NCBI GenBank assembly: GCA_002717245.1
Contig: PBCY01000019.1
Location: 83,970-139,778, forward strand
Length of the DNA: 55,809 nt
Direction: 5' to 3'
DNA from: Pelagibacteraceae bacterium
GTDB taxonomy: Bacteria; Pseudomonadota; Alphaproteobacteria; GCA-002720895
Both the position numbers and the translations under genes were made by a program. Position 1 is the stretch's first letter; each line of letters opens with the position of its first letter. Under the pieces are notes generated by a model. That model was not told the DNA's origin, ran no database searches, and was given only the letters and a program-made list of their open reading frames with translations. This document shows, one piece after another, positions 28,933-34,541 of the stretch.

Positions 28933-30316
28933 TCAAAACTTAGGTGTAATAAAATTACATTTTCTTAAACTATTTTTCAAATTAAGTTTAATTTTCTTTA
29001 AATTTTCTTGATTATTAGCTTCGCATCTAGCAACAATAATATTTTGTGTATTAGAAGCTCTTACTAGCCACCAGCCATAGTTATTTGAATATCTTACTCC
29101 GTCAATATCTATAAATTTTTTATTCTCTTTTTTTAAAATATTTTTTAACTTTTTAACAATCAAGAATTTTTCGGTTTCTGTACTATTAAATCTTAATTCA
29201 GGAGTATTATAGGATTTTTCCATACTATCAAATAGTTTTGACAAAGAATTATCAGAGTCACAATACAGATTTAAAAATCTTATAGAAGCGTATATTGCGT
29301 CATCAAATCCATAATATTTATCAGCAAAGAAAATATGGCCACTCATTTCACCGGCAAAGATTGCTTTAGTTTCTTTCATTTTTTTTTTTATTAAAGAATG
29401 TCCAGTTTTCCAAAATATAGGATTACCATTTAATTTTTTAATTTCATTAAAAACAACTTGGCTGGATTTTATATCTAAAATAATTTTAGAATTTGGATTA
29501 TTTAAAAGAACATCTCTAGCTAAAAAAGCAACAATCTTATCTGCAAATATAATTCTTCCTTTATTATCAACCACACCCAACCTATCGCCATCGCCATCAA
29601 AGGCAAAACCTAAATCGCATTTTTTTTTTTTTTACTAAATTTATCAATTGTTTTAAATTTTTTGGAACAGTCGGATCTGGATGATGTGAAGGAAAATTTC
29701 CATCAATTTTTCCATTAATAATAAAATGTTTACCTTTTATTTTTTTAATTAATTTTGAAACAACCTCTCCACTTGATCCATTACCTGGATCCCAAGCAAC
29801 TTTAATATTCTTTTTAATATTTGAAGAATTCTTTAAAAAAGATAAATATTTATTTTTAATTAATATTTTTTTTATTTTTGCTTTTTTATCATTAACAAAA
29901 ATACCTTTTGAAGAAATTCTAGCCAAATCTAAAATATCTTTACCTACAATACTTTTATTTTTTAATAACATCTTAAACCCATTATAATTTGAAGGATTAT
30001 GTGAACCTGTAATCATAATTCCGCTATCATATTTCTTAGAATACATTGTAAAATATAACAAGGGGGTTGGAACAAGACCAATTTTATAAACATTAATGCC
30101 TTTAGAGGACAATCCTTTTACTAATTCTTTTTCAAAATTTATTGAACTAATTCTTCCATCGTACCCTACTACAACATTTTTAAATTTTTGTTTTTTTAAT
30201 AAAGTAGCAAATGCTTTTCCTAAATATAAAGCATCGATACTATTTAAATCTTCATCAATTATGCCTCTTATGTCGTATTCACGTAATATTGTTTTTTTAA
30301 AATTATGAATATCCAT
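28933..30316 (-). pseudogene. Phosphomannomutase/phosphoglucomutase, split by a frameshift in a 14-A homopolymer (ORFs 29597..30316 and 28933..29580)
   Basis: N-terminal ORF has YDIRGII, ITGSHNPSNYNGFK, DPGNGSSGEV; removing one A at 29620-29633 restores VKKKKCDLGFAFDGDGDRLGVVDNKGRII (metal-binding DGDGDR) and joins the C-terminal ORF (AGEMSGHIFF, DIDGVR). Confidence 0.88.
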
Positions 30317-30335: not shown

Positions 30336-30548
30336 CTAAATACCTATTATTTTTAATAAATTAGGAAGAATGCTTCTAAGAAAAGAAATTAAAAAACCTA
30401 CTTTGCCAGTGTATATAAAATAAATAATCAAACCAATTATAAATAAAATAAATAAATTTTTATAAAATGAATTCTTATTTTTAAAAAAATTAATCAATAT
30501 AAAAATAAAAAAAAATGCTGCTAGTATGAATAATAAAATTTTGATCAT
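30336..30548 (-). CDS. Small hypothetical membrane protein
   Basis: 70 aa, two hydrophobic segments; follows promoter-containing gap; no family recognised. Confidence 0.5.
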   Translation of the reverse strand: MIKILLFILAAFFFIFILINFFKNKNSFYKNLFILFIIGLIIYFIYTGKVGFLISFLRSILPNLLKIIGI

Positions 30549-31691: not shown

Positions 31692-31710
31692 TATTAATTT
31701 TTAACTTATT

Positions 31711-31777
31711 GTAAGGAGTCAATTTATTGAGGGAGAATATATGACTCCTTACTTGATTTTATAGAAATCTATACAAA
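31711..31777 (-). ncRNA. Candidate sRNA driven by an ECF-type promoter: 5' hairpin (31760-31773) and 11-bp hairpin (31711-31752) with UCUCCCUC in the loop
   Basis: Minus-strand promoter GGAAT-N16-CGTT (31807..31783) just upstream; arms GTAAGGAGTCA/TGACTCCTTAC perfect, TATAGA/TCTATA perfect; ends are approximate. Confidence 0.5.
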
Positions 31778-31782
31778 CTAAT

Positions 31783-31807
31783 AACGAAATAAATAAAATT
31801 TTATTCC
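31783..31807 (-). promoter_or_regulatory. ECF-type promoter C: GGAATAAAATTTTATTTATTTCGTT
   Basis: Same GSAATAAA-N12-TCGTT pattern and 16-nt spacer as the two plus-strand copies in this cluster. Confidence 0.6.
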
Positions 31808-31861
31808 TTTTTTGATTAAAAAATATTATTTAATGTATAGGTGTAATTTAATTATTTAATT

Positions 31862-33073
31862 GTGAAATTATTTATAAAAATTTTATTCTTTTTCGTATTT
31901 ATTTTATTCTTTAATAAAGAATTATTATCTGAAGATTTTGATACTGCTAAAAAATATTTAAATAATAAAGAATATGATGAAGCTTATAAAAATTTTAATT
32001 CATGCACTAATGAATGTATTTCAGGAATTAATTGTAATAAAGAACATTTTATGTGCATGCTAGAAATAGGAAGAATGCTTGAACAAGGTCTAGTTGAAAA
32101 AGATTTAAGTAAAGAGCAAAGAACAAATAAAGCAATTTTTTGGTATGAATATTGTTCTGATAAAAAATCAAAGAAATGTGCTGTAAAAATTGCAACTTTA
32201 AAACCTAGAAATAAATTTATTGTAAAAAACATTCAAGAAAAATTATTTGATTTAGGATATCCAATTAAAAGGGATGATATACCAGGTATTGAAACTTTTG
32301 ATGCTATTGAAAAATTTCAAAAAAAAGAGCAGTTACCGGTAGAGCTACCTAATGAACCTGAAGAATGGCTTAAACTCAATGATATGTTAACAAATGCATT
32401 AGCCAATAAAAAAAATAATGAAAATACAAAAATTGGAAAACCATCTGATTATTCTACTGGTATATGGGTAGGTAAAAAAAATAAATTTTATGTTTTATCT
32501 GCTGCTCATTTTGTAAATGGATGCACTAAAATTAGATCTAATAAACTGAGTTTAAGAGTTTATAAAATTGATAATTTCAATGACTTAGCTTTATTAGAAA
32601 GCGATGAAATTAATAAAAATAATATTTCAGCTGAGTTTCCTTCAAAAGCAGGAGTTGAGAATGAAAAAATTTATGTTTTTGGCTATCCAAGACAGACTAT
32701 TCTTGGCAAAGGAGAGACGTCTGAAGGAGAGATCATATCTTTAACGTTAAAAGGAGACAGAAGCAAAATAGCTATCTCTGGAGATTTACATATACATTCA
32801 AGTGGTAGCCCTGTTATTAATAAAAAAGGACTAATAATTGGTACTGTGCATGCAAAATCTTCTTTATGGAAAAAAGTAAAAGAAAAATTAAAATTTGGTG
32901 TAACGTCAGAAGGTCAAAACCTAGCAATTTCAATTTATACAATTAAAAGCTTTTTAGATGAAAGTAATGTTGATTACGTTACTCTTTATGATCCAAAAAA
33001 TAAAGATAGAGAACAAATAATTTCAAAAGCAAAAAAATATACTATACCATTGGAATGTTGGGGAAAAAATTAA
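31862..33073 (+). CDS. Secreted trypsin-like serine protease with Sel1/TPR-like N-terminus and peptidoglycan-binding-like domain (GTG start)
   Basis: Signal peptide; VKNIQEKLFDLGYP...GIETFDAIEKFQKKEQLP; catalytic-type VLSAAHFVNGC, NDLALLES, HSSGSPVINKKGLIIGTVHA. Confidence 0.8.
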   Translation: MKLFIKILFFFVFILFFNKELLSEDFDTAKKYLNNKEYDEAYKNFNSCTNECISGINCNKEHFMCMLEIGRMLEQGLVEKDLSKEQRTNKAIFWYEYCSDKKSKKCAVKIATLKPRNKFIVKNIQEKLFDLGYPIKRDDIPGIETFDAIEKFQKKEQLPVELPNEPEEWLKLNDMLTNALANKKNNENTKIGKPSDYSTGIWVGKKNKFYVLSAAHFVNGCTKIRSNKLSLRVYKIDNFNDLALLESDEINKNNISAEFPSKAGVENEKIYVFGYPRQTILGKGETSEGEIISLTLKGDRSKIAISGDLHIHSSGSPVINKKGLIIGTVHAKSSLWKKVKEKLKFGVTSEGQNLAISIYTIKSFLDESNVDYVTLYDPKNKDREQIISKAKKYTIPLECWGKN

Positions 33074-33074
33074 C

Positions 33075-33099
33075 GGAATAAAGTTATTATATAATCGTT
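33075..33099 (+). promoter_or_regulatory. ECF-type promoter A: GGAATAAAGTTATTATATAATCGTT upstream of the ECF sigma gene
   Basis: GGAAT-N16-CGTT, 9 nt between CGTT and ATG; same architecture as promoters B and C. Confidence 0.65.
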
Positions 33100-33108
33100 A
33101 TAACTACT

Positions 33109-33708
33109 ATGAGGGAGATTTTAAAAAAAAAAATAAGATTAGAGGCCCGCAAATGTTACGGAGATTTATTAAATTATACTAAATTTAGCCTTACCCACAA
33201 TCATCATGATGCTGAAGATTTAGTTTCACAAGCTTACATTAGATTTTTTAATTCTTATGACAAAGGAAAAAGCAAATATAAAGAAAATACTAATATTCTA
33301 GGATATTTAAAATTAATAGTAAAAAACCTATATATTGACAGAAAAAGAAAAGAAAAAAGATCTCCTAATATTATTTCTATTCACAAAGAAATAGATAATA
33401 AAGAAATTATTAATTTTGATGAATACAAAGCTCAAAAACTTGAAAAAGAAGAAGAGAGCATTAAAGATCCATTCTCAATAAATATAGACATAAAGAGAAT
33501 TCTAAAAATAATGGATAGATTGCTATCTCAGGAAGATAAAGAAATTTTCTTTTTAATATTTATTGAAGGATATAAATATAATGAAGTTTCTAAAAAACTT
33601 AAAATTTCTCAAGGAACTATAGGTAGCAGACTAAATAGGAACATTAAAAAAATTAAGCAAGAATTAAATAAAAAAAACGTTAATAAAGTTAAGGAATTAA
33701 AAAGATGA
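33109..33708 (+). CDS. ECF-type RNA polymerase sigma factor
   Basis: Region 2 HDAEDLVSQAYIRFFNSYD, IVKNLYIDRKRKEKR; region 4 EIFFLIFIEGYKYNEVSKKLKISQGTIGSRLNRNIKKIKQ. Confidence 0.88.
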   Translation: MREILKKKIRLEARKCYGDLLNYTKFSLTHNHHDAEDLVSQAYIRFFNSYDKGKSKYKENTNILGYLKLIVKNLYIDRKRKEKRSPNIISIHKEIDNKEIINFDEYKAQKLEKEEESIKDPFSINIDIKRILKIMDRLLSQEDKEIFFLIFIEGYKYNEVSKKLKISQGTIGSRLNRNIKKIKQELNKKNVNKVKELKR

Positions 33709-34211
33709 AGATAGATAATAGCGCTCTTATAAGATTTATTAATAAAGATCTTTCTAAATTAGAAAGAAAAAAAATACAATTATTAATAAATAATAATGTA
33801 AAAATAAAGTCAAAATATAAAAGTTTAAAAAATTTTCAATCTATTCTTAAAGATCAAGCTAAGATTAATAAAAAAAATAAAATGCCTGAGAAATTACTAA
33901 ATAAAATTTCTATAGATAATGAAAATACAAAAAATACTAAAATAAAATTTAATAATTTATATAAGATTGCCGCTAGTTTACTAGCATTTGTTGCCATAGG
34001 ATGGTTAATTAGTATGCCTAATAAAACTTTTTTATCTAAAAATCCGAATCCTTATATAAAAAATAGTAATTCAAATAAGATACATATTTTTTATAATCCT
34101 GTAACATTATCCGATTTTCTCTACGAAAATAAAAATAATTGTTCAATTCCTGAAAAAATATTAGATGAAAATAATAAAGAAGTATACGCGGTTAGCTGTA
34201 AAATAAACTAA
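33705..34211 (+). CDS. Putative anti-sigma factor (cytoplasmic N-terminus, one TM, extracytoplasmic Cys-containing tail)
   Basis: ATGA overlap with the sigma gene; N-terminal ALIRFINKDLSKLERKKIQLLI, single TM IAASLLAFVAIGWLISM, two Cys at the C-terminus. Confidence 0.72.
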   Translation: MKIDNSALIRFINKDLSKLERKKIQLLINNNVKIKSKYKSLKNFQSILKDQAKINKKNKMPEKLLNKISIDNENTKNTKIKFNNLYKIAASLLAFVAIGWLISMPNKTFLSKNPNPYIKNSNSNKIHIFYNPVTLSDFLYENKNNCSIPEKILDENNKEVYAVSCKIN

Positions 34212-34222
34212 AAAAAAAAAAT

Positions 34223-34247
34223 GCAATAAAATTTTAAGAAAATCGTT
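34223..34247 (+). promoter_or_regulatory. ECF-type promoter B: GCAATAAAATTTTAAGAAAATCGTT upstream of the small membrane protein
   Basis: GCAAT-N16-CGTT; 9 nt between CGTT and ATG, identical spacing to promoter A. Confidence 0.6.
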
Positions 34248-34256
34248 CTTATAGAT

Positions 34257-34541
34257 ATGAATAAAAAATTACTATACCCTTTATATGGAATTGTTTTCTT
34301 CTTTGTATTATCAATTATTTTTATTACATCTTTTACTAAAAACAGTATGTCAAAAGAAATTGATCCCAGATATCCTGCTACGAGATGGCTAGAAATAGAT
34401 AATTATATAGGTGGAAGCAAATCTAGTATGGAAAATAGTTCTAAAAATAAAACTATAGAACCAATTAAATTTGCTGAGGACATATCTATACCAGAATTAC
34501 CTAATTTAACTGATATTCCTCTAACAAATGAAGATAAATAA
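34257..34541 (+). CDS. Small membrane-anchored protein, function unknown, candidate ECF regulon member
   Basis: One N-terminal TM (YPLYGIVFFFVLSIIFITSF) and a 65-aa tail; ECF-type promoter directly upstream. Confidence 0.65.
   Translation: MNKKLLYPLYGIVFFFVLSIIFITSFTKNSMSKEIDPRYPATRWLEIDNYIGGSKSSMENSSKNKTIEPIKFAEDISIPELPNLTDIPLTNEDK

Follow-up and report, generated by a model that had tools for sequence, protein, structure and literature searches.

Introduction

The sRNA GsrN of Caulobacter and the GsrN-like sRNAs depend on an ECF sigma factor, are usually encoded beside sigma/anti-sigma genes, and carry an exposed C-rich loop that is their most conserved part (PMC5869019). As part of the EcfG/NepR/PhyR general stress response, GsrN activates katG, the target on which it has been studied. 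In Rhodobacter sphaeroides, the 72-nt sRNA StsR, made by the stress sigma factors RpoHI/RpoHII, pairs near the start of the mRNA of an ECF sigma factor (rpoE), lowers the level of this mRNA and closes a negative feedback loop, which is an indirect one (PMC8307010). The RpoE-RseA-DegS system of E. coli joins an ECF sigma factor, a membrane anti-sigma factor and a periplasmic serine protease with the sigma-dependent sRNAs MicA, RybB and MicL, which repress outer-membrane protein or lipoprotein mRNAs (PMC8103513). The protease of this system, DegS, is of the HtrA type and has a PDZ domain.

Here, we describe a locus of a marine alphaproteobacterium that is well supported, from its sequence and conservation, as a compact self-contained ECF sigma stress-response module with its own repeated promoter-like motif. 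By comparison of parts and wiring, GsrN is its nearest precedent in anatomy and StsR in logic. The predicted sRNA resembles GsrN in its putative ECF sigma promoter, its place beside the sigma genes and its exposed C-rich loop, a likeness of anatomy and not of demonstrated RNA homology, with no match in Rfam even at E-values up to 1. In contrast to GsrN, its sigma factor falls outside the EcfG group, NepR was not found in the genus, and its best predicted target is the start of the sigma gene itself. With StsR it would share pairing near the start of an ECF sigma mRNA, but the sRNA described here and the sigma factor that it would repress have promoter-like sites of one class at a single locus. 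Unlike DegS, the protease encoded here carries a peptidoglycan-binding domain, and we recognised no homologue of RseB at the locus. The literature searched, which covered few subscription journals, yielded no report of a sigma-driven sRNA that directly targets the mRNA start of the same sigma factor.

Results

Conserved gene order around an ECF sigma operon

The window, meaning the whole 55,809-nucleotide stretch of DNA that was analysed, belongs to a 1.14-Mb genome (G000), and its relatives are labelled G001-G005. We compared its locus (Table 1) with those of three congeners, AG-464-G09 (G002), Pelagibacteraceae SP2998 (G001) and MarineAlpha6_Bin4 (G004), which together with the window species make up the four species referred to below. 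A fifth relative, G005, represents a sister genus, and its contig begins within the anti-sigma gene. G003 lacks both the sigma gene and the adjoining glycosyltransferase gene, so that the absence of the locus there is uninformative. A preliminary description of this DNA had read the genes as a self-contained ECF sigma module. It proved accurate in gene content, coordinates, the GTG start of the protease gene and the ATGA overlap at 33705-33708. The synteny in relatives that it called for is also present, as the order from the substrate-binding protein (SBP) gene to the formate-THF ligase gene is kept in 3 of 3 congeners. This last gene is a 563-aa ORF at the end of the conserved block, which we take to be a formate-THF ligase from its sequence.

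The neighbourhood also showed differences between genomes. At window positions 28933-30316, a phosphomannomutase/phosphoglucomutase-like gene (family read from sequence) appears to be split into two ORFs near 29580-29597; it seems longer in one congener, and the window has either a frameshift or an assembly error. Between the phosphomannomutase/phosphoglucomutase-like gene and the SBP gene, the congeners encode a protein of about 485 aa that was judged decarboxylase-like by eye; the window has only a 70-aa hydrophobic ORF (30336-30548) there.

Table 1. Features of the sigma factor locus (window coordinates)
Feature	Position	Strand	Remarks
Putative sigma-dependent sRNA	31694..31776	-	Both ends estimated; 5' end about 7 nt past CGTT; placed by promoter position and conserved structure
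sRNA hairpin 2	31711..31752	-	10-pair stem, 31743-31752 with 31711-31720; loop exposes UCUCCCUCAA
sRNA loop seed 5'-UCUCCCUCA-3'	31728..31736	-	Perfect 9-nt complement of 33110-33118
sRNA hairpin 1, GAUUU-CUAUA-AAAUC	31755..31769	-	5/5 pairs kept in four species
Promoter-like site 1, GGAATAAAATTTTATTTATTTCGTT	31783..31807	-	Points away from protease gene into SBP-protease intergenic region; orthologues in three congeners
Secreted protease, 403 aa	31862..33073	+	GTG start; N-terminal hydrophobic segment; PG_binding_1 121-160; Trypsin_2 199-327
Promoter-like site 2, GGAATAAAGTTATTATATAATCGTT	33075..33099	+	Before sigma gene; kept in three congeners
ECF-type sigma factor, 199 aa	33109..33708	+	Sigma70_r2 and Sigma70_r4_2 above cut-off
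TGAGGGAGA at sigma start	33110..33118	+	Resembles a ribosome-binding sequence; predicted target of the sRNA
Putative one-TM anti-sigma factor, 168 aa	33705..34211	+	ATGA overlap with sigma gene; TM about 84-106
Promoter-like site 3, GCAATAAAATTTTAAGAAAATCGTT	34223..34247	+	CGTT 9 nt ahead of small-protein ATG; kept in sister genus
Small single-TM or signal-anchored protein, 94 aa	34257..34541	+	Conserved C-terminal tail ISIPELPNLxDIPLTxEDK

The sigma factor contains only two domains, Sigma70_r2 (residues 20-84) and Sigma70_r4_2 (residues 139-180), which is the sigma2-plus-sigma4 architecture of ECF (group IV) factors. Profile matches in the PDB named SigH, SigE and SigW as its nearest solved relatives, and no second ECF-like sigma factor was found in its own genome. 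Membership of the EcfG general stress response was rejected on three grounds. In the tree, the sigma factor lies apart from the NepR-linked EcfG group, with a 96/84 branch between them; its identity to NepR-linked sigma factors is 20-26%; and NepR (PF18557) was not found in the five genus genomes (59-90% complete), while the Caulobacter positive control was detected.

The second protein of the operon is a putative anti-sigma factor on the basis of gene order, the ATGA overlap and topology. The preliminary description of a one-TM anti-sigma-like gene therefore holds for position, overlap and membrane segment, with no profile or fold match behind it: profile searches against Pfam, NCBIfam, PDB and the ORFs at other ECF loci gave no anti-sigma match, and the AlphaFold model (mean pLDDT 61) retrieved nothing meaningful in a fold search. 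Helices are predicted at the N-terminus with low confidence. Weak matches to DUF2207_C in two members are probably due to membrane segments. In G001 and G004, a second hydrophobic segment stands in place of the soluble outer domain. Neither this protein nor the small membrane protein matched a curated family above cut-off. The ATG of the small protein lies 9-10 nt after CGTT in five genomes, and its mRNA is thus probably leaderless; the sister-genus contig (G005) retains both this gene and site 3.

A promoter-like motif confined to the locus

The preliminary description reported three sites reading GSAATAAA-N12-TCGTT. All three were exact, and a scan of the whole 1.14-Mb genome returned these 3 matches and no others, compared to 0 for the reversed-pattern control; the expectation from dinucleotide shuffles of the window was 0.00. 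Since the pattern was derived from these very sites, the genome-wide count is partly circular, and conservation provides the better, independent test. All three sites are kept in the three congeners, with a constant 25-nt box-to-box length and a diverged spacer sequence. Site 3 reads GGAAGAAAAAATAAATTTTTTCGTT in G001 and is present as GGAATAAAATTAAATTAGAAACGTT in G005. The comparison with background was therefore favourable for the full pattern, within the limit of that circularity, and unfavourable for the loose core GSAA-N17-CGTT, which occurs 18 times genome-wide versus 40 times in the reversed-pattern control and so is not enriched on its own.

The motif is conserved before the sigma gene in four species and would be recognised by the sigma factor encoded there. 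The protease gene has no site in its own orientation. A further match, at 33657-33681 within the sigma coding sequence, recurs in all four species; we discounted it, since codon conservation explains its presence.

Only 4 of the 18 loose-core matches are intergenic, namely the three described here and one, GCAAATAAATATTATTTAGTTCGTT, at G000:C20:64323-64347 (-). It lies 9 nt before the gene of a 206-aa protein, presumably lytic transglycosylase-like as judged from its sequence, and is oriented divergently from a gene that, again by its sequence, is peptide-deformylase-like. Similar sites are also found in G001, G002 and G003, and the GCAAATAAATATTATTTAGTTCGTT site may belong to the same regulon.

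The form GSAAT-N16-CGTT resembles the EcfG promoter GGAAC-N16/17-CGTT, as the preliminary description had pointed out, but AAC/CGT-type boxes are general among ECF sigma factors (PMC8103513). With the sigma factor outside the EcfG group in the tree and NepR not found in the genus, we consider the resemblance probably superficial.

The minus-strand site precedes a conserved, predicted two-hairpin RNA

The minus-strand site, which had been counted as part of the module, does not belong to the protease gene. Rather than an ORF, a predicted two-hairpin RNA follows it, conserved in four species and with a loop complementary to the sigma gene start, a feature overlooked in the earlier reading. All 15 pairs of the predicted structure are kept in the four species, 3 of them with both sides changed. 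These 3 lie among the 10 of 10 kept pairs of hairpin 2; in hairpin 1, two of the 5 pairs are kept as G-U, in one species each. When the structure was slid by 1-3 columns, at most 55% of the cells remained paired. Column shuffles reached an equal covariation score in 13 of 500 cases, and with only four sequences the covariation support is good but not overwhelming. Read in the minus-strand direction, the non-Watson-Crick cells (4 of 4) are G-U; the plus strand would give A-C instead. All four species share the loop UCUCCCUCAA without change, and it stays unpaired in every predicted minus-strand fold.

A covariance model of this RNA (R1) gave one match per genome in the four species, other matches being weak (E of at least 0.1), and there were no significant matches in the other 56 genomes of a 60-genome set. 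The comparison of the RNA draws on four species of one genus. A clear U-run terminator is absent in 3 of the 4 species, where a terminator scan likewise found none. A plus-strand leader peptide, ATGACTCCTTACTTGATTTTATAG, within the hairpin was considered and rejected, the mini-ORF not being conserved.

The predicted sRNA loop matches the start of the sigma gene

The sequence complementary to the loop at the sigma start is UGAGGGAGA in the window species and G002, GAGGGAGA in G001 and GGGGAGA(U) in G004. Among the gene starts examined (52, 37, 17 and 29 in the four species), the sigma start ranked first by duplex energy in every species, with −16.6, −16.6, −15.6 and −13.2 kcal/mol compared to −10.2, −9.1, −6.6 and −9.0 kcal/mol for the next best. 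The 9-mer TGAGGGAGA occurs 5 times in the window species' genome, at the RNA locus, at the sigma start and 3 times inside coding sequence, and at no other start codon. Most gene starts in the window have no SD, which makes the G-rich sigma start unusual. The leader of the window species is shorter than that of the others, so that here the motif runs into the annotated ATG (ATGAGGGAGA), and the exact start codon is uncertain. Pairing with the G004 target is weaker, and 312 of 2000 shuffled loops did equally well there. The sigma-start pairing carries the caveat that any strong SD would match an anti-SD loop. Given this fit between the loop and the beginning of the sigma mRNA itself, the sigma switch is probably self-limiting.

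Protease and putative anti-sigma factor share an allele split

The likely catalytic residues of the protease (His216, Asp241 and Ser314, a triad assigned by eye) are invariant in the four species. There was no match to a PDZ domain, so the protein lacks the trypsin-plus-PDZ combination of HtrA/DegS-type site-1 proteases. From about residue 111 onward, its informative sites are dominated by a split of the window species and G002 versus G001 and G004 (78:16:14), and the same split dominates the anti-sigma factor from the TM outward (18:6:4). It is not dominant in the N-termini of the protease (2:5:17) and the anti-sigma factor (2:6:7), nor in the small protein (7:10:5), SBP (26:20:31) or glycosyltransferase (23:37:34), and the sigma factor is intermediate (21:9:17). 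The window thus has an allelic mosaic at 32192-33073 and 33951-34211, the stretch between them following the split weakly or not at all.

Since two separated stretches share this split, our comparison suggests that the protease, in its catalytic part, and the anti-sigma factor, in its outer part, are inherited as matched allele types. This is a lead and not proof, because a shared 2:2 split among four species has a chance of about 1/3 of arising by accident. The preliminary description proposed that the protease may act on, or be sensed through, the anti-sigma factor; the shared split weakly and indirectly backs such coupling, in which a cleaving or sensing role may be supposed.

Discussion

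We interpret the locus as a self-limiting ECF sigma circuit in which an sRNA damps sigma synthesis, the best reading of the data, to which we give a probability of roughly 55%. According to this model, the sigma factor would be bound by its membrane-bound anti-sigma partner and released by an envelope signal, and the freed sigma factor would transcribe three local units through the GSAATAAA-N12-TCGTT promoters. These units would be the sigma/anti-sigma operon itself, the small membrane-anchored protein with its nearly leaderless mRNA, and the short two-hairpin sRNA, which is encoded on the other strand in the SBP-protease intergenic region. Its loop UCUCCCUCAA would then pair with GAGGGAGA at the sigma mRNA start, so that less sigma factor and less of the coupled anti-sigma factor are made, a brake that could turn positive autoregulation into a pulse or a set-point. 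The secreted peptidoglycan-binding protease encoded upstream would be constitutive or expressed from another promoter, and may be coupled to the outer part of the anti-sigma factor as a sensor or a cleaving enzyme. The sequence itself provides the genes, the promoter-like sites, their conservation, the RNA structure and its complementarity to the sigma start; transcription, recognition of the sites by the sigma factor, its binding by the anti-sigma factor, the direction of the RNA effect and the part played by the protease are inferences of the model. Searches of the five incomplete genus genomes (G000-G004) found no Hfq (PF17209) and no CsrA (PF02599), and the sRNA may therefore act without them. 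A more complete version, namely a minimal one-locus ECF circuit in which a sigma-made, Hfq-independent sRNA shuts off translation of the same sigma factor, and which is coupled to a peptidoglycan-bound protease whose alleles are passed on in matched pairs with those of the anti-sigma outer domain, is tentative, and we would not expect all of its parts to hold.

The predicted RNA could also be a real sigma-dependent, trans-acting sRNA that acts mainly on other mRNAs through a general C-rich anti-SD loop, as GsrN does, its match to the sigma gene being incidental to the strong SD of this gene, such SDs being few in the genus. GsrN of Caulobacter indeed depends on sigma-T and uses its C-rich loop on many G-rich targets (PMC5869019). 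Moreover, the loop gives −10.2 also with the AAGGAGG start of another gene, and shuffled loops often match the G004 target. This alternative nevertheless seems unlikely, as in 4 of 4 species, with 17-52 gene starts each, no other start comes near the sigma start as a target, and the 9-mer was found at no other start codon of the window species. An ordinary ECF sigma/anti-sigma operon, beside which the minus-strand site and the hairpin are unrelated or non-functional remnants, is the least probable of the explanations considered. Autoregulated ECF operons are common, and about 55% of ECFs with predictable targets are estimated to be autoregulated (PMC8103513), but this explanation is opposed by compensatory changes, an invariant loop and a constant promoter position across four species that share only about 70-80% identity in their flanking proteins.

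It is likewise improbable, to a slightly lesser degree, that the hairpin works on the plus strand, where it could terminate SBP transcription, form a 3'-UTR structure of that gene, or act as a protein-binding decoy with the loop UUGAGGGAGA, a repeat of the sigma-start sequence. The hairpin does lie 20 nt past the SBP stop codon, and its plus-strand loop matches the sigma start and contains an AGGGA core. An AGGGA core is a feature of CsrA sites; CsrA, however, was not found in the five incomplete genus genomes, which disfavours a decoy of that type, and neither a canonical terminator nor a conserved mini-ORF supports the plus strand. The minus strand is the only one on which the four non-Watson-Crick cells form G-U pairs, and it has an oriented promoter-like site ahead of it in four species. 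The covariance model scored 94.1 bits on the minus strand versus 23.7 on the plus strand, a difference that is partly by construction because the model was built on the minus strand.

If the self-limiting circuit is true, a streamlined marine alphaproteobacterium in which NepR, Hfq and CsrA were not detected would provide a very compact, one-locus case of a sigma factor equipped with an RNA brake of its own. The circuit would also illustrate how an envelope-stress response can persist in a reduced genome when nearly all of its regulon is gathered in a single place, and the pairing of protease and anti-sigma alleles in two matched types would then offer a natural experiment on how the signal is read.
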